Source: an uncultured Nitrosomonadales bacterium
GTDB lineage: Bacteria; Pseudomonadota; Gammaproteobacteria; Burkholderiales; Gallionellaceae
Direction of reading: 5' to 3'
Assembly: GCA_903934275.1 (NCBI GenBank)
Contig: CAIZNF010000334.1
Location: 1-12,255, forward strand
Length of the DNA stretch: 12,255 bases
In this document: positions 1 to 12,137 of the stretch, in pieces
How positions within the stretch are numbered: the stretch's first letter is position 1
How the letters are laid out: each line of letters begins with the position of its first letter
The notes under the pieces: model-generated
Seen by the model: the letters and a program-made list of their open reading frames with translations, nothing else
Databases searched by the model: none
What the model was told of the DNA's origin: nothing
Translations under genes and position numbers: made by a program

Positions 1-66
1 GAGAGGGAGGAGAGGGAGGACGACACAGGTTAGGATGCTGAAGGCGTAGGTTGGCTGCAACCATAC
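1..66 (-). other. Start of an intron, running off the window
   Basis: Read on the minus strand, the exon is followed by GTATGG (66-61), then a TCCTAAC branch-site-like sequence (35-29), then an almost pure pyrimidine tract to position 1. This is the order expected of a short spliceosomal intron of about 70 nt, close to the 55-62 nt introns elsewhere in the window. The acceptor AG would fall just outside. If there is no intron, the frame would instead continue as a hydrophobic stretch. Confidence 0.5.
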
Positions 67-468
67 CTCGCGCGATAGGTTCGCCCGCCGCTTCGCCTGT
101 TTCGCCTCCATTTCCGGCTTGCGCTGGCGCTTCGTGTTCGCCCCGGGGGAGGAGGAGGACAACGAGGAGGAGGCGGAGCTGGCGGCGGAGTTACCGGCAA
201 CGTTGGCGGCATGCGACTCAATCCTTCTCCTAATCCGCTTAATGTATGCTTGAAGAGCATTTTCGACGGCCTCTGCTGACTTGTCGCTTCCGGAACCGGT
301 ACGATAGTATGCACGTACAATTTTTTCCAGCAGTTTCCGGGGCTTCGCCTCCCACTTTTTCTCTGTTTGATTCCATACCCGCCCAGGCATCGTTTTTAGC
401 AATATGTCATAGATCCCTTCAATCCCAGGATCTCCTTCATAAGTATTTTGTGGATGACCGCGAGGCAT
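67..468 (-). CDS. Partial gene, first exon, unrecognised basic protein
   Basis: I do not recognise this protein. Read on the minus strand from the ATG at 468-466, the frame gives 134 codons without a stop and then meets GAG|GTATGG, a plausible splice donor (intron begins at 66). The frame is also open upstream of the ATG to about 519, where stops appear. Residues 1-56 are mixed charged/hydrophobic and look globular (GIYDILLKTMPGRVW, then KLLEKIVRAYY). Residues 63-86 look helical and basic. A Ser/Ala run occupies about 93-108, and a bipartite basic stretch (KRQRK...KQAKRR) at about 113-128 resembles a nuclear localisation signal. The Ser run explains the GGA-rich plus strand near 150-190. A proline-rich frame overlapping it on the same strand looks less like protein. 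The 3' part of the gene lies outside the window. It is divergent from the recombinase gene at 816. That it is coding is inference from composition and the splice signals. Confidence 0.55.
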
Positions 469-815: not shown

Positions 816-3195
816 ATGACAGAAGAAGAAGAGTTCAGCGACTGTGGCTCCCTGGTGTCCGACTCCGACTGCCCCCTTCTCTCTGCGGCCAGTGAAGATG
901 ATGATGATATCGGCAACGTCAGGGACTTTGTTGGCGAAGCTGTCGACGCAGACGAAGACCTATTGGTGGCGTTAAGCTCTTTGGGGTCCAGCTACACGGC
1001 CAACGTTGCAATCCGTCAACAGATTGAAGAATTGCAAACTGTTGGTCGTTGCAGTTTTCGAGTCGCTTTGCAATGCTCTATGGACGGATTCCATCACAAC
1101 CCAATGGGGTCTGTGCTGAGGTAGGTAATACATCTTTGTTCTTTGCAAATCAAACTTCCGCTGACGTCCAAACGACAGGTTTGCTGGGGACGACGTAGAA
1201 AGATCTATTATCCTTATCCATGAGGACGCTGACCTGATGGACAAATTTTCGCCTGGGTTTAGCCGTGAAGACCTCGCGCTTATGGATGGGGCCATTTTCA
1301 AAAAGGGCATGCAACACTGGCTGAGAAAAGCAGCACTCTCCGAGCACTGGGTTGATCAGACGTTCAAGACTGCCTCTACACGTTTTGTGAGGGATTTCTC
1401 TTTTTGGGCTCTGGGCCACGGATCAAAACTTAATCGGGAGCTGAATGTCGTGACCGGCTATTCAGAAAGATATGCTCTTGATGCGTTGGCAGCTATTGCC
1501 TCTGCATTGTTGTCCACCGGAAACCTTGCAATGTTTTGCAGTGCTTCGGCGCTATTAAACCTGGTGGGCCTGCAAAGCAACGGCGCCGCAGAAAAACGTG
1601 ATTATGTAGCAGAATGTTCGATTGGAAGCAGGACGGCCAGACTGTGTCACGTCGTGTTGGCATTCCGATTCGCCTATGCGTGCCGAGGAATTAGCGTCGA
1701 GAAGGGAATTGCCGCCGCTGGCCTCGCTCGACTCAAGGGGGGAATCGGTATGTTCAGTGTTTGTTCCAAGTACATCGCGTGTTCTTTGCTCACGCACGCA
1801 TTTGTTGCCGACTCAGCGTTTCTGAAGCAAGGACATTTGCGCTCGTTGTCGACGTTAGACGCTCGAAAGGCACGGACGGCCCAGATGAAGCCGTGGCCAG
1901 AAGTCTGGGCCAATCAAGCTGGTGTCACAGCCTCGTCCCTCGCGCGCCTTTTGACCACCGTGAACTCTGATGGGCGGGCGACTGCTGGCACGCGAACGGC
2001 AGTTTGGGAGTTTGAAAACGACATGGTGACAGAGTTGTCGACTCAAAATGGTTCGGCCCGGCCGGTCAATTTGGCCAGCTATCTTGTGCGAGATGTTCGT
2101 GCGCGTAAAGACACTGGAGGCACGCTTCACCAGATCGATATCGATGAATGGGGCGGCAAAGGCCACCAGAATCGCCATCTGCGACATGCATCACCGCTCT
2201 CCGGCAGCGGTCCTGCACAACCACACGGTTGCTACAAAGTTGTTGACCCGGAGTGTGTGGTCCATTTTGGTATGTGGCTTGGTAAAACTGTGCTTGGCAT
2301 GCCGTCGGCCGAACCCTGGCCGGCGTTGAAGTCGTTGTCACCGCTGGCGGCTGCGCACCTGTCAAAGGTAGGCCTCCGAAGTCTGATGCTCAGTGGGGCT
2401 CCCGATTCGGGCCACGTACTTCTGGCTTACAACGGCGAGGGCCCCATAAACCGCAGCTCGCTGTTTGTCCAGCTCAAGCAGCGCACGGGCGTGGCGCCTC
2501 GATTCGTGCGGCGCGCCCAATCTTCGCACATTGCAGATGTTTTGGTGGAGGACGCTGCCGGAGGACTGAGCACTGGAGGCGCTTCGCATGCGTTCGCAGA
2601 CCTTGTCAGTCACTTATCCTCAACCTCACTCGCAAACTATGTCCACCATCAACAAGAGCAGGTCCGTGGCGCTACTGCTTTAGCAGCTGTGCGTCGGTCT
2701 GTCAGTGGCGCTGCGCACGCCCTAGTAGAGACCCGGAACAACGCCGCCGCTCCGTCTGAGACGATGGTAACCCAGAGAGTTGTGGCTGCCGCTTCGAGTG
2801 TTCTCCCGCTCATGAGTGAGAGGTTGCAGACCGAGCCGCTGGCCGGCGGCTATGAGCCCATGCCCAGCAGCCATGATATCGACGCCGACGACTTCTCTAA
2901 CGCAAGCGACAATGGCTCGGAAATGCCGCAGCCGAATGGGAGCCTGGAGCACAACCAGCAGCGCCGCAGAGCCGCACGCAATACGATCAAATTTCACCCG
3001 CAAGCAGCCTCGTGCGGCACGTGTGGGACTGTTTTCTCGGATAAAAAGGCTTTGTTGAAACATCAAACTTTATCGGCCCGCACTTGTCAAGCGCGGAGGG
3101 AGCTGGCCGGAGATCGTTTGGCGGAGATAATTGCGGCGGGAGACAAAGCAGCCCACATGCAGCGGATGGAGGCCCGGGCCCAGAAGCTCAAGTAA
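816..3195 (+). CDS. Tyrosine recombinase-like protein with CCHC zinc finger (two exons)
   Basis: Spliced as join(816..1120,1179..3195), giving 773 residues. Splicing joins an AG|G arginine codon (residue 102) and keeps the frame. ATG 816 is the first ATG in the frame; the extra upstream codons lack one. Residues 1-60 are acidic and Ser-rich. The region from about 370 to 600 matches the catalytic core of tyrosine recombinases: R396 in NGSARPVNLASYLVRDV (Arg I box), K429 (beta-hairpin Lys), R546 in RFVRRAQSSHI (Arg II box), H580 and nucleophile Y589 in SHLSSTSLANYVH, with the usual 9-residue H-to-Y step. The usual box II histidine is R543. These enzymes cut and rejoin DNA through a 3'-phosphotyrosine. 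A zinc finger follows (C714, C717, H730, C738; C-x2-C-x12-H-x7-C), then a basic helical tail. Crypton, DIRS and Starship elements encode such enzymes, but I cannot assign a family. All core residues but one are kept, so it may be active. Confidence 0.85.
1121..1178 (+). other. 58-nt spliceosomal intron in the recombinase gene
   Basis: The donor is CTGAG|GTAGGTAA and the acceptor ACGACAG|GTTTGC, with a CTGAC branch-site-like sequence at 1160-1164. Removing it joins two open frames, 816-1120 and 1179-3195, into one. Without splicing the first frame stops at 1124. Its length matches the two introns at 4557 and 5013. Confidence 0.85.
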
Positions 3196-3207
3196 AAATT
3201 GGTCTAG
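3105..3207 (+). repeat. Recombinase 3' end, copy A of a duplicated 103-bp segment
   Basis: This stretch encodes the last 30 residues of the recombinase-like protein plus its stop codon and 12 bp beyond. It recurs as copy B at 3632-3748 with 3 substitutions and a 14-bp insertion, so copy A is the intact, coding version. Confidence 0.95.
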
Positions 3208-3631: not shown

Positions 3632-3748
3632 GGCCGGAAATCGTTTGGCGGAGATAATTGCGGCGGAAGACAAAGCAGCCCACATGCAGCGGATGGATGC
3701 CCGGGCCCAGAAGACCCTAACCCTAAGCTCAAGTAAAAATTGGTCTAG
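3632..3748 (+). pseudogene. Copy B of the recombinase 3' end, with telomere-type insert
   Basis: This is a second copy of 3105-3207, 527 bp downstream in the same orientation. It differs by 3 substitutions in 103 bases and by 14 extra bases. It begins inside the codons for GDRLAEII and covers the recombinase C-terminus, stop and first UTR bases, so it is a gene fragment. The insertion shifts the frame past the original stop. It could in principle act as an alternative last exon, but I see no good acceptor, so a fragment from a segmental duplication is more likely. Confidence 0.8.
3714..3727 (+). repeat. Interstitial telomere-type insert, (CCCTAA)2
   Basis: The 14 bases ACCCTAACCCTAAG are present in copy B and absent from the otherwise near-identical copy A, where CAGAAG joins CTCAAG directly. 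The core at 3715-3726 is two perfect CCCTAA units, the complement of the common TTAGGG telomere repeat. This looks like repeat addition during break repair. Confidence 0.85.
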
Positions 3749-4251: not shown

Positions 4252-5745
4252 ATGGAAGAGGCACCCGGCAAACGACGGGCAGACTCAGATGCCGCAGATT
4301 TGATGTACGAGTGGGGGCGCTCTGTCCGCCCGGCAAAATTAATGAAAGTGCTTGGCACACTTTTGCTAGCATCGGTCGCGATTGGTGTTTTGACCTCCGA
4401 CTGGAATAACCAAGTTCTCTGTAATGGATATTCGGAAAATGTCTATCGGGCTATGCACGAGGATCATCACCGAGTGACTGCCTTCGAAATTGGGCTGACA
4501 GCCTATTTTATTTGGTTGTTGGAGAATACCGAAGGGCCACTGGTGGTTATTGAGATGTAAGCAACATTCTGGTGTACTGAGGTGTTGTTTATTTATTAAA
4601 CCCGTTTTGCTTTTTCAGTGGCTGTGGCCAGTTTCTCACCCTCACAAAGATGCTCGTCTTACTGGCTGCTTCCGTACGCCTGACTGCGGAACAGAAGGAG
4701 CGTATCTCACAAATGGTCATAATTTGTATCGAAGGCAATGTGAAGGCTGCCGCGATAGCAGCGACAACCGTAGAGGGTGATTCCATGATGAAAGGGAGAG
4801 TGCATATCATCCCCGGACTGTCTACCACTCCAAGCGTGGTTAATCAAGTCCAGATTTTTATTGACGACGTCCCTGGTGCCATCGTCGTGGGTGCAGTTTG
4901 TGAACTGTTGGGTTCATTAGCGACAGTTGAAGGCTACGAATATGTCATGCGCAACCTTACTGCGTCGTTTCCAGTCATCACCTATACTCCGGGCCCCGAT
5001 CGTTACGCTACGGTGAGTGTTCTAGCCCGTGCTGCTCGCTCCGTACTAATTGTTCCCTTCGTGCCAGATCATGCACCCTGCCTGCGTGCAAGCATATGAT
5101 ATTTCGGGACAACGGGGAAATCTCGCGCGAAAAGATGTGCTCGCTGACTCCGCGGGCCGGTTTTGCTCTGTTCAGAAACTAAATTTTGCGCAGACGCGCA
5201 CTTTTCCAAAGCCAGCGCTCTTGGAGTTTATTACTGCCGCATCTCGACGACAGGACAGCATGGAGTCGCGTACCACCTCGTGGCGTGTCGAACTAGACTG
5301 CGTCTGCAATTGCCTGGCATTTTTTATTTGGTTTGCTTTTGATACAGGTTTAGTCCTTGGTTCTACTAAGTTCACTGGCTTTCCGTACGATTTATCGTGC
5401 GGGTCCGGCGATGATCCTCGAATGCTGCGTCCGGCTGGTGTATCTGATGGCAGTAGCAACGTGAACGATGGCCTAACTGCCAACACCAATTGGCGCAACA
5501 TTATTTTGTGGTTGCCCTACATGAACCTTTCCTGCGGGGAGGTCCTTACCGTTCAGACACGTGTGGACACAACAGAGTTCAACGTGGTTTACCATTTTGA
5601 AATTTTTCGAGGAGTTGACGGCAACCACCCGGTTAGGCGCATTTCTTTAAAAGCGACAGATATGATCGGTTGTGATTGGCGAAAAGTAACCGCAGCTTCC
5701 CCAGTTCCAATCGTCCCGGTCGAGAGCGAGGGACGCCGTCGGTGA
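4252..5745 (+). CDS. PRMT-like protein arginine methyltransferase (three exons)
   Basis: Spliced as join(4252..4556,4619..5012,5068..5745), giving 458 residues. ATG 4252 is the only in-frame ATG before the conserved region. Landmarks follow the arginine methyltransferase order: an N-terminal helix VYRAMHEDHHRVTAF (64-78) resembling the PRMT D..R segment; SAM motif I VVIEIGCGQ (98-106), created by the first splice; acidic post-I IICIEGN (E140); a double-E loop CELLGSLATVE with E197 and E206, nine apart as in PRMT1; and a C-terminal beta-barrel with LAFFIWFAF (316-324) and NWRNIILWLPY...CGEVL (374-393). PRMTs transfer methyl from SAM to arginine of histones and RNA-binding proteins. Here the THW loop reads TNW (373-375), replacing the usual His, so activity or specificity is uncertain. 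A stretch at 30-48 is hydrophobic. An alternative 3' end is listed separately. The subclass is unknown. Confidence 0.8.
4557..4618 (+). other. 62-nt intron, PRMT-like gene
   Basis: The donor is GAGAT|GTAAGC and the acceptor CTTTTTCAG|TGG, with a strong pyrimidine tract. Removal joins an ATT codon and builds the SAM-binding motif VVIEIGCGQ across the junction. That a family motif appears only after splicing is strong support. Without splicing the frame stops at 4560. Confidence 0.9.
5013..5067 (+). other. 55-nt intron, PRMT-like gene
   Basis: The donor is CTACG|GTGAGTG and the acceptor TTCGTGCCAG|ATC, with a CTAAT branch-site-like sequence near 5046. The intron falls between codons (phase 0). 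Without splicing the frame would stop at about 5099 and lose the beta-barrel. Confidence 0.85.
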
Positions 5746-5747
5746 AT

Positions 5748-5809
5748 GCTCTTCTTTGAAGTTTAGGACGGCGCCCCGGCTCCGGCCCCGAATAAACTTC
5801 TGTGTCCAC
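5748..5809 (+). repeat. 62-bp direct repeat, copy 1
   Basis: It starts just after the TGA of the PRMT-like gene and matches 5949-6010 at 61 of 62 positions. A weaker match extends upstream into the last codons (GACGCCGTCGGTGAATGC versus CTGCCGCCTTCGGTCAAAGC, counting from about 5731 and 5931). The copies are 201 bp apart in the same orientation. Confidence 0.95.
5791..5796 (+). terminator. Polyadenylation signal AATAAA, proximal
   Basis: AATAAA 46 bp after the TGA of the PRMT-like gene, inside repeat copy 1, followed by T/G-rich sequence at 5800-5845. This is a normal distance and setting for a eukaryotic 3'-end signal. Confidence 0.6.
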
Positions 5810-5868: not shown

Positions 5869-5948
5869 GTAAGTGCGCTGTACGTAGACTGCACCATTCA
5901 GCCCTCACCTTTCATGCTTCACAGATTTCCCTGCCGCCTTCGGTCAAA

Positions 5949-6010
5949 GCTCTTCTTTGAAGTTTAGGACGGCGCCCCGGCTCCGGCCCCGAATAAACTT
6001 CTCTGTCCAC
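5949..6010 (+). repeat. 62-bp direct repeat, copy 2
   Basis: Second copy of 5748-5809, one mismatch. It lies after the candidate micro-exon and leads directly into the 11-bp minisatellite. It carries its own AATAAA, so the gene may have two possible 3' ends. Confidence 0.95.
5992..5997 (+). terminator. Polyadenylation signal AATAAA, distal copy
   Basis: The same hexamer in repeat copy 2. It would serve a transcript that splices over the proximal site, but it would lie inside the reading frame of the candidate last exon (ending at 6211), which weakens one of the two readings. The sequence after it is the minisatellite rather than a T/G-rich element. Confidence 0.3.
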
Positions 6011-6016
6011 ACTGGT

Positions 6017-6166
6017 GCCAGCCAGGCGCCAGCCAGGTGCCAGCCATGTGCCAGCCAGGTGCCAGCCAGTGCCAGCGAGGTGCCAGCCAGGTGCCAGCCA
6101 GGTGCCAGCCAGGCGTCAGCCAGGTGCCAGCCAGGTGCCAGCCAGGTGTCAGCCAGGTGCCAGCCA
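6017..6166 (+). repeat. 11-bp minisatellite, about 13.7 copies
   Basis: The unit is GCCAGCCAGGT. There are thirteen full units, one of them 10 bp, and a final partial. Variants are GGC for GGT, GTCAG for GCCAG, and single changes in units 3 and 6. The unit has no stop in any frame, so long repetitive frames appear on both strands. None needs to be a protein, apart from the possible terminal exon noted separately. Confidence 0.98.
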
Positions 6167-6168
6167 AT

Positions 6169-6550
6169 GTACAAAACGTCTATGTATGTAGGCCGACATG
6201 CGTGCATGTAGGTAGTAGCTAGCTGCAAGTTGAAGCAACAGCTACATGCTAGTAGTACTGCTAGTAGCTAGCTAGGGAAGGGTACAAAACGTCTATGTAT
6301 GTGGGCCGACATGCGTGCATGTAGGCAGTAGCTAGCTGCAAGTTGAAGCAACAGCTACATGCTAGTAGTACTGCTAGTAGCTAGCTAGGGAAGGGTACAA
6401 AACGTCTATGTATGTAGGCCGACATGCGTGCATGTTGGTAGTAACTAGCTGCAAGTTGAAGCAACAGCTACATGCTAGGAGTAGGTAGTAGCTAGCTGCA
6501 AGTTGAAGCAACAGCTACATGCTAGGAGTACTAGTACTAGGGAGGGAAGA
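6169..6550 (+). repeat. 113-bp tandem repeat with a shortened third copy
   Basis: Copies at 6169-6281 and 6282-6394 are each 113 bp and nearly identical. Copy 3 starts at 6395 and diverges after about 88 bp. Inside it a 47-bp part is itself tandemly repeated (6437-6483, 6484-6530), ending near 6550. Each full unit contains a bulged hairpin (GTAGCT...GTTG-AAG-CAACAGCTAC) and an imperfect palindrome (CTAGTAGTACTGCTAG). No coding signal is seen. Confidence 0.95.
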
Positions 6551-6732
6551 GGGGTATCCCACATGTAGCTAGGTTACATGTACATGTAGTAGCATAGCTA
6601 GCAACCTACATACACTAGTACATGTAGACAGCTCGAAGCGAGCTACATGTACATGGCGTGCATCGAATGCATTGAATGCATCTTTGGTCATGCTAGAAGC
6701 GAGCTGTAGCTAGAATCGAGACAGTCCGTTGA
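6551..6732. other. Palindrome-rich spacer after the tandem repeats
   Basis: TACATGTA, CTAGC and GCATCGAATGCA words recur in this 182-bp spacer; GCATCGAATGCA occurs near 6660 and again near 6738, the second overlapping the end of the methyltransferase gene. There is no gene. For the convergent 3' ends of the flanking genes I find no AATAAA on the minus strand here. Confidence 0.6.
6619..6651. repeat. Hairpin with 6-bp inner and 7-bp outer stems
   Basis: AGCTCG (6630-6635) and CGAGCT (6639-6644) pair around an AAG loop. Outside this, TACATGT (6619-6625) pairs with ACATGTA (6645-6651), leaving a 4-nt bulge on one side. It lies 80 bp beyond the stop codon of the minus-strand methyltransferase gene, so it could shape that transcript's 3' end. 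It may also be only part of the local palindromic repeats. Confidence 0.7.
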
Positions 6733-7803
6733 TCATGCATCGAATGCAAGGTGACATTCACTTTGAGTGATTGTATCGTACAACCTTCGCAACCTGTTGT
6801 CCATCGGCACTGCCGGTTGCGCGTCTGAAGTACTCATGGAAACTATTAAATCCGGCCGGTACCACACGTATGTTGACGTATGGTGATTTCCACTTCCGAA
6901 CGAATTGTTGGGTACCTCGATGTATTCTAAAACACGCCCCAGAGGACACAAAAACAGACGATCGTCCGACAAATCGTAGTCGTTGGGCTGTTGAAACCAG
7001 GGCAAATGGCGCTCGATGGGGGGCTGCTGCATGTACTTCCTTAACACAGGCGGACTGAGGGCACTGGAAGCCAGCGCCTCTACAGTAGGTGACGAGAGCA
7101 TCCAGCGGTGATAGCCAAAAAGTTCCCACGCTCTCCCGAGGTTCTTTGACAGCTCATCAACAACCGTGGATGCTGCCTTAGCCTGCCCGTCATACACGTA
7201 TATCAGAGTAATACCGCGTGGGTCGAATGTGGTTGCGTCTCCCAGGGCAAATGCCATCCTTCCAAACGCGCTCTCTCTGCCAGTCCGGCGCCGCACTTCA
7301 TCGAACTTTGTCTTGATCGCAAGAAAGATTTGGGGCGACACCTCTAGACCAAACGCTACCACGCCCAAAAACCAACTGAAGTACGCAACAGCACAGCCCT
7401 CTCCAGCACCAGCATCGACCAGCAAGTGCCGCCGTGGGTTGAATTTTTCCATTCCCCCATAGATCATCAAGATGACAGCAAGAACCCTTTTCATTGACGC
7501 AAAGTCCGTGTGGTTATATATATGGCCACCTTTATCGAGTGAACTTGTGACGAGCGGTGCGTGGCCGCCATAGTTTTGCTTCCACTTATCATCTTTTTTT
7601 TTCTCAGTTAATTGTCGATGCGTGGTAGCGTTGGTTTTTCCTTCTGCCAGGAGCACACGGAAGGCGGATGTGAGCTCGTTACTGGGAATTCTGAGCGGCA
7701 TCGCGGCAACAGCGCGGATCGCAGCTTCTGTCTGCACCATTTCGCAACTGGTAACGCTGCCCTCGATCGGTTGCCGCTCTACCGGTACGTCTGCCCGCTC
7801 CAT
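6733..7803 (-). CDS. Class I SAM-dependent methyltransferase, possibly DOT1-like
   Basis: A single exon of 356 residues. ATG 7803 is the first ATG; the frame is open further upstream but only with non-ATG codons that overlap the divergent gene. The SAM-binding fold shows motif I LLVDAGAGEG (127-136), the acidic post-I residue in FGLEVS (E154), then FALGDATTFDP (185-195) and ITLIYVYDG (198-206) at the motif III/IV positions. The order GxG, GxE, GD with an upstream YxxxG resembles DOT1-type lysine methyltransferases, but a DPPY-type or NPPY catalytic motif is absent and I cannot name the substrate. The C-terminal third (HLPWFQQPNDYDL, VLEYIEVPNN, TSTYVWYRP) is not recognised and may bind the substrate. 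A basic stretch EKKKDDKWK (68-76) lies near the N-terminus. It is divergent from the large gene at 7851. Confidence 0.8.
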   Translation of the reverse strand: MERADVPVERQPIEGSVTSCEMVQTEAAIRAVAAMPLRIPSNELTSAFRVLLAEGKTNATTHRQLTEKKKDDKWKQNYGGHAPLVTSSLDKGGHIYNHTDFASMKRVLAVILMIYGGMEKFNPRRHLLVDAGAGEGCAVAYFSWFLGVVAFGLEVSPQIFLAIKTKFDEVRRRTGRESAFGRMAFALGDATTFDPRGITLIYVYDGQAKAASTVVDELSKNLGRAWELFGYHRWMLSSPTVEALASSALSPPVLRKYMQQPPIERHLPWFQQPNDYDLSDDRLFLCPLGRVLEYIEVPNNSFGSGNHHTSTYVWYRPDLIVSMSTSDAQPAVPMDNRLRRLYDTITQSECHLAFDA

Positions 7804-7850: not shown

Positions 7851-10800
7851 ATGGACGACGCAACGCAGATGGACGTAGAGTTTGCAGGTAGTGACAGAAT
7901 TACCCGTGCTAGCTTGAATGGAGTTACTCGGGTCTACGATGAGGACATAAAATCACATGATTTTGAGAAATACGCGTCATCAGACTCAGGTGAATCCGAA
8001 CCGGAAACTGCAGACGTAGCGGACAATGAAACAGATGCAGCTACCGCTGGTGATTGGGAAGGGACCAGGGTAACCAAAACAAAAAAACGGCAGGAGCGGG
8101 GGAAAAGCAAAGTAGCAGGAACGATTGCGAAGAAGAAAATGCGACATGAAAAGGGGGAAGGTCGTGGCGGTGGGTGTTTGACCTCGTCATTCGTTGTGAA
8201 GATAGAAGGTGGAGTGAAACATGAGGGCGCAGCGGGATCTCGAGCACGTGTGCCCCAGCTTCTTTGGACCTTATTGGCCGGCCACGATCTCTACTCGAAT
8301 TGTGAAATCCATCTCGCGACGCATGTGGTTGAACTGTTGTTAGATTGGTTTCTTCCCAAGTTCACTAGCGCTTCGATTTTTTTTCCCGTTTATGAATTCC
8401 TGTACTTGAACCCGGATAAGTTGTGCCAGTTTCCACGTGAAGCATTAGCGGACGCTGTTTCATTTTTGGACGTATGTAGTAGAAACACAGCTTCAGATCC
8501 TGTGACCCATGCTCTTCTTTGGGACAATCCGCACCTCAAAGCAGTTTTCCGTCATCTGCTAGAGGCGTCTGGTGTGATCACAGGTGGTGCAGAAGCCGTA
8601 GAGCAGCATTGCGAAGTGATCGAGACTTTACGGCTATATTTAAAAAATTTGCAGGACCCCTTAAAATTATTTTCCTGCATATCTTGTGATGCATTAAAGG
8701 AGGAAGCGGAATGCGCTCGAGTGTTTTTTATGTTGCAACCGGTTATGCTCAACCTCGACGCATTGGGCTCCTTGATGTTACACGATCCGGATAAGACCAT
8801 CCAGCTTCTGAGTGCGCCAACCACATGGGTTAAAATCAATACGCTGTGTGACAAAGGATCCACCGGAACCCAAGACCTCCTTTTTATTAAAGGTGCGTTC
8901 AAGGAAATGGTTTTGCTGATCCGAGATGGAATCGCTCTGCTTCCACACGAGACTGTGAAGGGCCTGCGGGCGCGGCCATGGGTAATGACTCCGCGGCAGT
9001 GTACGGACACGTGGAATATTCTGGTGCGTTTTTATTTGAATTTCTTTAACACTCAAACCCAATGCTGTTTTGACCCACTCGTTATTCATCAGCATGAGGC
9101 GCTAAATGAACAAGTCCGAGAGACCATGGAGCAATATCTCAGGAGGGTAGAAGATGACCGGAAGGTTCTGGCGGAGCACAAGGCTTCTGAGGAATCGAGG
9201 TTAGAATCTGAAAAAGAACAACGCACACGGGCGCTGGTGCGAGCAACTCAACAGGTCGAGCAAGCAGCTGCCGCTAAAGCTGATGCCAAGAAGGCCTTGG
9301 ATGCAGCGTTATTACAGGTACAGGCGGGCAAATCTATGGGCCCGGTTGCCGCGGCCTCATCCATGGGTTCGGTTGCGGCAGTTGGCGAGCTTGAGGTGGT
9401 TGTTAGCGGTGGTTCGTCATTGGATCCTAATCCTAATGCCGTTGATGTGCTGCCGGGTGGGCATGCTCCTGATGCCGATACCGACCGGAATCTGGAAGAC
9501 CTGCGACGTAGTTTGGCTAATTCAGAACGAGTACTGCAGCTTGCGAACGTGGAGAAGGAAGGTGCTCAAGTAGCAGCCGTATCAGCGCAGGTTCCTTCTG
9601 TGCGCAGCAATCCGTTACCCAGTCCCGGCAGCCTGGTACCCGCTGCCGTTGAGACACCCCCTACTCTTGTTTTGTCAGAGGGGCCTCTTCCTGATGGTTT
9701 AGCTGCGGCCGTGTCAGCGTCAATGATGTGGCTACGACCTTTTTTACTGTCACACTGCACCGACGTGGTGATGGCGTTAGCGATTAGTCCGGTCGGACCA
9801 ACGGTCGTCCGCATTTCGCAGGGGACCAGCGGTGTAAAATTTGATTTGTTTCACGTGCCATCGCGGACTACGGAGAGTGGACTTGAGGAACCCCTCTTAA
9901 ATGTCCGTCTCATCATCGAATCATTTTTGGACGGCGTTCACGATCGATCAGTTCCGAGTCGGCACACGAAGTCCCTCACGTGTAAATTAGACAAAGCTCG
10001 CTCGTCGAATGGTAAGGCAGACATTGAAAAGGTTGCGAGTTGTTTGGGGCAAGATCACGTGGCATTTGTGTGTGGAGACGATGACGACGGTGCTGGTTCC
10101 GCTTTGTGGAGAAGTTTGAAGGATCAAGATCGGCAAGCTAGTTTTGAAGATAGTTTTGAAATCACCACGACTATTTTGCCTGCTGTCAGTGTCGGTACTA
10201 CGCTCTCGTCTCAGGTGTTGCCCCTTCTACCGGCATTAGCAGTATTTTCTGCGCTCGCCCGGGGATATGGGCACTTTGATGTGGGTCTCTTTTTTCGTAT
10301 TCAGACGTATCAAGTCCTTACCCTGGCCAAGACTGGGCCCGCGTACTATTTTGCGGAATTGTGTGTTCCACGTAACCTCGCGTCCAGAGCTGAGATCGCT
10401 GTATTTGATCATGCTTTGTTGCTGGGGTGGGCGCAAACTTTGACCGGCGGAAATATTCCAGGTTGTGTGCCCAACCTTCCGGGGGCTGGCGGTTGGTTCA
10501 TTCCGTCGCGGCAGAACTGTGCAAATTGGCTGAAGTGTCAGTTTCAGGGTGGTATGGATGATACTAGGGCTGATGTAGGTAACACTTCTCCCCAGTGGAT
10601 GCTAGGCGTGTACAACAGATATAGCGCGCCGTCGTTGATGGCACAAGAAACTACAACGTTCGCGTTAGACTTTCCATTGTCGAAGGACACAAACTCTTTC
10701 GGGGGAATTTTTAGAAAGGCAGAAAATTCACGTGGCAAATATCTGGAGTCCCGCGACGTGTACCATCACCAAGCAGCCGTATGGGCGTCTGACATGTTGA

Positions 10801-12137
10801 AGGTGGTGGATTTAAACGCCAGTTATATGTTTGGAATCACCACCCCTGCGTGCGAGGACGAACGCAAGCTGTATCTTCAGTATTCAAAACTTCCCGTGTC
10901 CGAATTCCCTAGATGCTGTGTGTCCACTTTTGGGGGCAGTGTGTTAGACGCAAATGTGCGCAAATTTACTGGAGTTTTAGCCCCTAATCCCGAGCAACTC
11001 GCTTATCTCAGTACCCTGACGGTCGACGACAGGGAGCTACTACGGAATCATGCGCTTTTTTTGATCGAGTTTTTTGTTAGGATTTGCTCTGAATCGCCTG
11101 ACCTTTTTGTGAAAAACGGAGTCGCTTCCCAGTCCGAGTCGATATCCGCACTTCGTGGGTTTAGTGACGAGCTGACGCGTCTCTCGGCCCCAGGAGCAAC
11201 TGCTGCGGGTCAGTCACATTCCGTTGATGAGCAAAGACGGACCTTATGTTTACAGATTAAAAAATGTTGCGAACTGTTTGATTACTACAACCAACCACTA
11301 CGTCGATTTTTGGATTTCGGTTTTAACTGCCTGGTCTATCCCGCTTACCGTGAACTGGCGTATGTAATCACTTTACGTCAAAAGAAAAAACAGGGAAACA
11401 AGGCGGCCATGACGGTGCTCGAAAAAAGGTCACTGACTTATCAGGATAGAATCCAACTTGCGCAAGCGCACGCAAAGGAGCAGCTATCTGCGTCTTCCTA
11501 TCCCACAGCAGAAGCTGAAACGGCTGTTTTGGAAGCTTTGTGTGTAGGGAGAGTTTTCGTTGGTGGCAGTCTGCGACAGGGACGGGAAGGTCTGGATGTC
11601 GTATACCTTGATGACTGTGTCCCTGTTGGTGCATCAAATCAGCTAGTGGCCGACCCAGTGTCCGTGAAAATCGCACTGATTGGATTGGTTGATGCGGATC
11701 CCGAGCGGAGGTTCGCCCTGGATTCTAGGTGGCTGGACAACAATATCTCGCCTGACGGCTTTGTGGTGGTGGAAGTGCTTACCCAGTCGAAACATGCGTT
11801 CGTCATCGACGGCGGTCCCGGAACTACGAACATAGCGGGCATTGTTTTCCTGCTCGGCCACTCAAGCTGGAATCAGTACCTTAAGGGATCACTAGTTGGA
11901 AGGCAGTTATCCAGTTTGGAACCGTGGATGGGGCGTACTTCATTGCAGACTAAAATGATCGAGCTTGATGTGAATTGTGATCTGTTCGAAATTTGTGATG
12001 GACAGTTTCCACTCTCCTGGATTTCCATCCCGCGGATCCACAATTTGATGAAAATGGGCAAGGGTGCCGATGTTCAGTGGAAGAGAGGAAATGCAGTGAT
12101 AAGTGGGCTCATCTGTCCAAACCAATTCTGTGTTTGA
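7851..12137 (+). CDS. Large orphan protein, 1428 residues, nuclear-type, coiled coil
   Basis: I do not recognise a family. One uninterrupted frame starts at ATG 7851 (context GCCAAGATGG, good for eukaryotes). Residues 44-66 are acidic and Ser-rich. Residues 74-108 are strongly basic (TKTKKRQERGK, AKKKMRHEK), a likely nuclear localisation signal. VKIE and VKHE, both fitting the SUMO consensus, lie at about 114-123. Residues 130-410 look globular and helical. A charged coiled coil spans about 418-492 (EQYLRRVEDDRKVLAEHK, then Ala-rich heptads) with a shorter one at about 543-580. A low-complexity linker contains SMGPVAAASSMGSVAA (about 494-510). Residues 620-1428 look globular, with aromatic and Cys-rich parts but no catalytic motif I can name, and no membrane segments stand out. 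It shares its 5' region with the methyltransferase gene, suggesting co-regulation. Confidence 0.85.
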   Translation: MDDATQMDVEFAGSDRITRASLNGVTRVYDEDIKSHDFEKYASSDSGESEPETADVADNETDAATAGDWEGTRVTKTKKRQERGKSKVAGTIAKKKMRHEKGEGRGGGCLTSSFVVKIEGGVKHEGAAGSRARVPQLLWTLLAGHDLYSNCEIHLATHVVELLLDWFLPKFTSASIFFPVYEFLYLNPDKLCQFPREALADAVSFLDVCSRNTASDPVTHALLWDNPHLKAVFRHLLEASGVITGGAEAVEQHCEVIETLRLYLKNLQDPLKLFSCISCDALKEEAECARVFFMLQPVMLNLDALGSLMLHDPDKTIQLLSAPTTWVKINTLCDKGSTGTQDLLFIKGAFKEMVLLIRDGIALLPHETVKGLRARPWVMTPRQCTDTWNILVRFYLNFFNTQTQCCFDPLVIHQHEALNEQVRETMEQYLRRVEDDRKVLAEHKASEESRLESEKEQRTRALVRATQQVEQAAAAKADAKKALDAALLQVQAGKSMGPVAAASSMGSVAAVGELEVVVSGGSSLDPNPNAVDVLPGGHAPDADTDRNLEDLRRSLANSERVLQLANVEKEGAQVAAVSAQVPSVRSNPLPSPGSLVPAAVETPPTLVLSEGPLPDGLAAAVSASMMWLRPFLLSHCTDVVMALAISPVGPTVVRISQGTSGVKFDLFHVPSRTTESGLEEPLLNVRLIIESFLDGVHDRSVPSRHTKSLTCKLDKARSSNGKADIEKVASCLGQDHVAFVCGDDDDGAGSALWRSLKDQDRQASFEDSFEITTTILPAVSVGTTLSSQVLPLLPALAVFSALARGYGHFDVGLFFRIQTYQVLTLAKTGPAYYFAELCVPRNLASRAEIAVFDHALLLGWAQTLTGGNIPGCVPNLPGAGGWFIPSRQNCANWLKCQFQGGMDDTRADVGNTSPQWMLGVYNRYSAPSLMAQETTTFALDFPLSKDTNSFGGIFRKAENSRGKYLESRDVYHHQAAVWASDMLKVVDLNASYMFGITTPACEDERKLYLQYSKLPVSEFPRCCVSTFGGSVLDANVRKFTGVLAPNPEQLAYLSTLTVDDRELLRNHALFLIEFFVRICSESPDLFVKNGVASQSESISALRGFSDELTRLSAPGATAAGQSHSVDEQRRTLCLQIKKCCELFDYYNQPLRRFLDFGFNCLVYPAYRELAYVITLRQKKKQGNKAAMTVLEKRSLTYQDRIQLAQAHAKEQLSASSYPTAEAETAVLEALCVGRVFVGGSLRQGREGLDVVYLDDCVPVGASNQLVADPVSVKIALIGLVDADPERRFALDSRWLDNNISPDGFVVVEVLTQSKHAFVIDGGPGTTNIAGIVFLLGHSSWNQYLKGSLVGRQLSSLEPWMGRTSLQTKMIELDVNCDLFEICDGQFPLSWISIPRIHNLMKMGKGADVQWKRGNAVISGLICPNQFCV

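Follow-up and report, generated by a model that had tools for sequence, protein, structure and literature searches.

The gene at positions 816-3195 of the forward strand of the window (the whole stretch of DNA analysed here, 12,255 bp) appears to encode a very divergent eukaryotic tyrosine recombinase carrying an added C-terminal C2HC finger, and the account towards which we lean is that it is probably the sole enzyme encoded by a Crypton-like DNA element, or by something recently descended from such an element. The broader proposition that the protein is a tyrosine recombinase, whether it serves such an element, has been domesticated by its host or belongs to a virus or other large element, is likely to be correct.

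Origin of the contig

The window constitutes an entire contig (C334) of a prokaryotic bin of 3.33 Mb and 722 contigs, with an estimated completeness of 93.9% and contamination of 5.7%; the 20 genomes of the same genus among those listed measure 1.6-3.2 Mb. The tetranucleotide correlation between the window and the sampled bin is 0.66, against 0.83-0.96 for ten of the 13 readable bin contigs (of 722) and 0.57-0.76 for the other three, which makes the window a compositional outlier, though not the sole one (seven of 20 bin stretches, returned as N, were excluded from this comparison and from the control set described below). Genes of the contig contain what look like GT-AG introns, 55, 58 and 62 nt long. 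The eukaryotic origin put forward in the original prediction is borne out by the presence of introns in both the recombinase gene and a neighbour and by a composition unlike that of ten of the 13 sampled contigs, and the contig is most likely misbinned eukaryotic DNA. The recombinase, a 1460-aa ORF, a methyltransferase-like ORF and an intergenic 12-mer of this contig were not found on any other contig of the bin. Neither an Rfam family nor a tRNA was detected in the window, and a search across the bin for three telomere units returned none. Another contig of low ORF coverage (L045) was considered as a second eukaryotic one and dropped, its ORFs being bacterial-looking by eye (dockerin-like, antitoxin-like).

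Structure of the gene

The sequence delimits a first exon at 816-1120 (+) and a second at 1179-3195 (+), the latter supplying the remainder of a 773-aa protein and the stop codon. Between them lies the 58-nt intron that had been proposed earlier (1121-1178, +), a GT-AG intron of the form GTAGGT...GACAG with a branch-point-like CTGAC upstream of the acceptor, the removal of which by splicing would yield the 773-aa product. A shorter unspliced product may also exist, since exon 2 has a downstream ATG of its own. Exon 2 lies in an open frame of 676 codons and shows codon bias in that frame: when the 1460-aa ORF serves as the training set, this frame scores 0.09 and the others -0.07 or less. The same test is indecisive for exon 1, where the proposed frame scores 0.17 and the others at most 0.07, because the non-coding stretch immediately upstream (520-815) reaches 0.20 with the same training and because, with exon 2 as the training set, the proposed frame (0.10) is outscored by one on the reverse strand of exon 1 that is interrupted by two stops (0.13). 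The N-terminus of the protein is acidic, with 18 Asp or Glu residues and a single Lys or Arg among the first 60.

The probable Arg II-His-Tyr half of the active site

The five putative active-site residues named in the original prediction are all found where it had placed them in the spliced 773-aa protein. These are R396 (2059-2061, +), the candidate Arg I, in GSARPVNLASYLVRDV; K429 (2158-2160, +), the candidate catalytic Lys; R546 (2509-2511, +), assigned to Arg II; H580 (2611-2613, +), at the GH position of the conserved His; and Y589 (2638-2640, +), the candidate nucleophile. The place of the first His in the HxxR of Arg II is occupied by R543. As evidence, the bare five-residue motif was dropped, since 3618 of 5000 shuffles carry its loose form, R-x(18,40)-K-x(40,140)-R-x(18,40)-[HW]-x(7,10)-Y; adding the context of the boxes lowers the figure to 421 of 5000, and requiring the protein's own spacing, which is a post hoc pattern, to 44 of 5000.

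Searches of curated libraries gave no match to a recombinase model, be it in Pfam (exon-2 product at E values up to 1, slices up to 10) or in PHROGs and NCBIfam (both at E values up to 10, for the exon-2 product and slices). When the protein was compared with PDB sequences, the searches yielded zinc-finger proteins only, nothing at all, or matches judged to be due to chance. The missing Pfam match reflects the divergence of the host as much as that of the enzyme, because other genes of the contig are equally invisible to Pfam.

Profiles were built from known recombinases and aligned to the protein with hhalign, an HMM-HMM method of greater sensitivity. PF00589, run against the bin at E values up to 10, matched 17 places, none of them on this contig; two of these matches, both below the cut-off, were left out, and the others gave a profile of 15 bacterial enzymes. 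A phage profile comprised 11 enzymes, namely lambda Int, Cre and nine integrases (12 had been taken from the 40 matches listed, of which the fragment L060 and the unannotated L057 and L061 were left out), and the two sets were merged into a 26-enzyme profile. With the 15-enzyme profile, the E value was 0.018 for residues 341-620, a slice picked around the motif, and 0.037 for the whole protein, at an hhalign probability of just 2.6%. Its best stretch covers residues 521-600, in which PRFVRRAQSSHIAD is aligned to PHTLRHAFATHLLN and, after an 11-residue insert, ADLVSHLSSTSLANYVHH to QMLLGHADISTTQIYTHV. One of 1000 shuffles reached the score of the protein (1 of 100, 0 of 500 and 0 of 400 in separate runs). 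For the 26-enzyme profile the E value was 0.026 and none of 400 shuffles scored as high; for the phage-only profile it was 0.062, with 9 of 400 shuffles as high.

All three profiles, when offered the whole 773-aa protein, choose the same place within residues 515-600 (2416-2673, +): two align 515-599 and 521-600, and the phage-only profile aligns 571-595, with His and Tyr in an unchanged register but in a stretch too short to include Arg II. H580 and Y589 are paired with the conserved His and the nucleophile in the three profiles, and R546 with Arg II in two. Each of eight of the 15 bacterial enzymes, left out in turn as a positive control, was recovered at E 1.8e-17 or better. Among 99 control slices, drawn from the two other large ORFs of the window, the N-terminal 340 residues of the query and stop-to-stop ORFs of at least 300 codons from the bin (not all of them genuine genes), one outscored the query, on a different part of the 15-enzyme profile. 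With HMMER and the 15-enzyme profile, 31 of 500 shuffles outscored the protein, the best-scoring stretch of which (567-600) again aligns H580 and Y589 to the equivalent residues of the profile.

These results bear directly on whether the protein is a recombinase at all. It could instead be a zinc-finger protein of other descent whose Arg, His and Tyr match the recombinase positions by chance, as would suit the frequency of the bare motif among shuffles, the silence of the curated families, the low hhalign probability and a HMMER score no better than those of shuffles. We hold this to be unlikely, given that three profiles converge on one place and one His-Tyr register with scores above those of nearly all shuffles. 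H580, Y589 and, in two profiles, R546 are modestly but repeatedly supported as catalytic residues. The original prediction of a tyrosine recombinase is accordingly retained for the Arg II-His-Tyr half, on the strength of the three profiles, and found no echo in the Pfam, PHROGs, NCBIfam and PDB sequence searches.

The candidate Arg I and Lys region and the C-terminal finger

The segment containing R396 and K429 scored no differently from many shuffles, 57, 155 and 120 of 200 being as high with the three profiles, so that K429 is without profile support and R396 is weak in the profile tests. A position matrix built from 26 Arg I boxes likewise gives R396 a weak result: its window ranks second in the protein, behind that of R740, which lies beyond the Tyr, and a score as high turns up somewhere in 133 of 500 shuffles. 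The assignment of R396 and K429 as candidate Arg I and Lys rests on the eye, the comparison for Arg I being between R-P-x-x-L...D-V in the protein and R-x-x-E-L...D-I/V. AlphaFold2 models computed without an alignment for residues 329-613 and 380-618 had mean pLDDT values of 33.6 and 34.6 and carry no fold information.

Downstream of the putative catalytic region, residues 714-738 (3013-3087, +) form a C-x2-C-x12-H-x7-C motif with Phe and Leu at the places typical of classical C2H2 fingers and the last His replaced by Cys (zf-C2H2, E 0.02, below the cut-off). The retroviral Gag knuckle has the spacing C-x2-C-x4-H-x4-C. The finger that the original prediction had described as CCHC is indeed present, as a C2H2-type finger with Cys for the last His and not as a knuckle of the retroviral CCHC kind. 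The finger is presumed to bind metal, and the protein DNA.

Comparison with known tyrosine recombinases

Starship captains (DUF3435) are eukaryotic tyrosine recombinases. A profile match to Crypton or Starship recombinases, suggested earlier as a check, did not materialise: Pfam-A, which we take to contain the DUF3504, GCR1_C and DUF3435 models, returned neither DUF3504 (the Crypton lineage) nor DUF3435 for the exon-2 product and its slices, and no GCR1_C for the exon-2 product at E values up to 1. Likewise, no reverse transcriptase of the kind that, together with RNase H, accompanies the recombinase in DIRS and Ngaro elements was matched in the eight window ORFs scanned against Pfam at E values up to 1. 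The bacterial and phage enzymes Xer, lambda Int and Cre (PF00589) share with our protein the register of Arg II, His and Tyr over about 80 residues, as well as a GEGPINRSSLFVQLK-like segment before Arg II; the protein differs from them in lying below Pfam detection, in having Arg for the first His of HxxR and an 11-aa insert, and in its long N-terminal half, its finger and its intron.

Tyrosine recombinases are rare in eukaryotes, and those known there in 2011 all belonged to mobile elements (PMC3212892). Cryptons (F, S, A and I) resemble the present gene in that a eukaryotic tyrosine recombinase is provided with an extra C-terminal region. According to that source, this region is the DNA-binding GCR1_C in CryptonF, whereas CryptonS lacks GCR1_C and has a conserved C-terminal region of its own together with terminal repeats of 5-6 bp, and some Crypton elements carry a C48 peptidase (PMC3212892); here, in contrast, the region holds a C2HC finger, and no Pfam match was obtained.

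A recombinase-like domain is also found in the DUF3504 genes of hosts (ZMYM2-4, QRICH1, KCTD1, KIAA1958 and WOC), the ZMYM genes among which have zinc fingers as well. Our gene may similarly be a host gene of recombinase ancestry, combined with a zinc finger and now employed in transcription or chromosome maintenance, a possibility worth entertaining if on the whole doubtful. The single full copy in the bin, the intact frame and the resemblance of the acidic N-terminus and finger to nuclear regulators would all fit with domestication. However, the DUF3504 genes are reported to have lost the Tyr and the second Arg (PMC3212892), whereas the candidate Arg II, His and Tyr are kept here and the DUF3504 profile is unmatched; moreover, the copy count covers the bin only, in which this contig is the sole one of its host to have been recognised.

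Neighbouring genes and relatives in other genomes

A lysine- and arginine-rich ORF at 1-468 (-), which may splice at a GTATGG near 66, is divergent from and head-to-head with the recombinase gene and runs off the contig. Downstream, a three-exon gene at 4252-5745 (+; exons 4252-4556, 4619-5012 and 5068-5745, introns 4557-4618 and 5013-5067) encodes 458 aa. Removal of its first intron restores VVIE|IGCGQ, which we take to be a methyltransferase-like motif, so that by eye the product is perhaps a second, arginine-methyltransferase-like enzyme; it is without Pfam or PDB support. A 76-nt direct repeat (5734-5809 and 5935-6010, 95% identical) lies across the end of this gene, a second short tail duplication like the one described below, and tandem arrays follow at 6014-6560 (an 11-nt unit repeated 14 times and a 113-nt unit repeated 2.9 times), together with intergenic DNA rich in CTAGCTAC/ACATGTA. 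The single-exon ORF of 356 aa at 6733-7803 (-) resembles a class I methyltransferase; its sole PDB match is to a DOT1-type H3K79 methyltransferase, at E 0.55 and over the cofactor-site stretch. The ATG of this ORF is 47 bp from that of a divergent, intronless 1428-aa frame (7851-12137, +), which is acidic at its N-terminus and drew no credible family match from the libraries tried.

Tyrosine recombinases also occur in integrated viruses and in large cargo-bearing elements. The neighbouring ORFs, compact and in two cases methyltransferase-looking (partly by eye), could accordingly be the cargo of a Polinton-like virus, a giant-virus insertion or a Starship-like element to which the recombinase would belong. 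This is improbable in our estimation: besides the missing DUF3435 match, no viral family was recognised in the ORFs scanned (eight against Pfam, four entries in a second scan), and peptide-pattern scans of IMG/VR, two of them using six exact patterns of 8 residues apiece, found no relatives of the 1460-aa ORF, the recombinase or the methyltransferase-like ORF. The latter is a weak test, as such pattern scans are insensitive: for a bacterial Xer-like enzyme they missed relatives that tblastn detects in 1388 phage records. With tblastn, no relative of the recombinase was detected among phages and plasmids. Searches of the relatives set (299 genomes) and of the phylum (398 genomes), the genome itself included, returned the window alone, and the 1460-aa ORF found only itself among 369 genomes of the class. 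The one locus returned by a scan of GTDB (L009, Caulobacter) was rejected, the matched frame being antisense to a long RTX-like repeat ORF.

Duplicated 3' end and telomere-like words

The 3' end of the recombinase gene (3105-3207, +) is duplicated downstream as a 103-nt copy (3632-3748, +; 100 of 103 positions identical) that spans the last coding bases and the first bases past the stop; all three differences alter an amino acid. The copy is split by a 14-nt insert, ACCCTAACCCTAAG, made up of two telomere-like units, and looks as after break repair with telomere-like filler. Other copies of the gene with empty sites had been suggested as a further check; the bin contains one full copy and this 103-nt piece, and no empty site. 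Cryptons have terminal direct repeats of 4-6 bp and lack TIRs; no element ends or terminal repeats were found around the gene.

The telomere-like 9-mer ACCCTAACC occurs upstream of the gene (633-641, +) and again inside the 103-nt copy (3714-3722, +). Two occurrences in the window compare with 0.06 expected, and none of 200 shuffles had two, for a word that was picked after being seen; three 9-mers are common to both flanks of the gene. CCCTAA is not enriched in the window (5 against 4.3 expected). ACCCTAACC could be the mark of a target site, repair filler or chance. As the word flanks the gene on both sides and the 3'-end copy holds two telomere-like units, one may conceive of an active recombinase element outside Crypton, DIRS and Starship that is directed by its C2HC finger and inserts at telomere-like repeats, although we regard this as very improbable.

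Proposed mode of action and implications

Returning to the Crypton-like element that we favour, the enzyme would bind short sites at the element ends with the help of the finger, and Y589 would attack the DNA, assisted by R396, K429, R546 and H580, to form a 3'-phosphotyrosyl link. Strand exchange, in two rounds and by way of a Holliday junction, would then excise the element as a circle and insert it elsewhere. We infer the N-terminal half of the active site, the mobility and the circular intermediate in this scheme. The enzyme is said to work like a Crypton-type recombinase and is not filed as a Crypton because, as set out above, the silence of Pfam speaks of the host as much as of the enzyme.

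If this interpretation is correct, the gene would represent a new deep lineage with a DNA-binding finger of its own and would extend the range of site-specific recombinases in eukaryotes; were it instead domesticated with its active site intact, it would be still more unusual. In addition, such genes can sit unannotated on eukaryotic contigs within prokaryotic bins.
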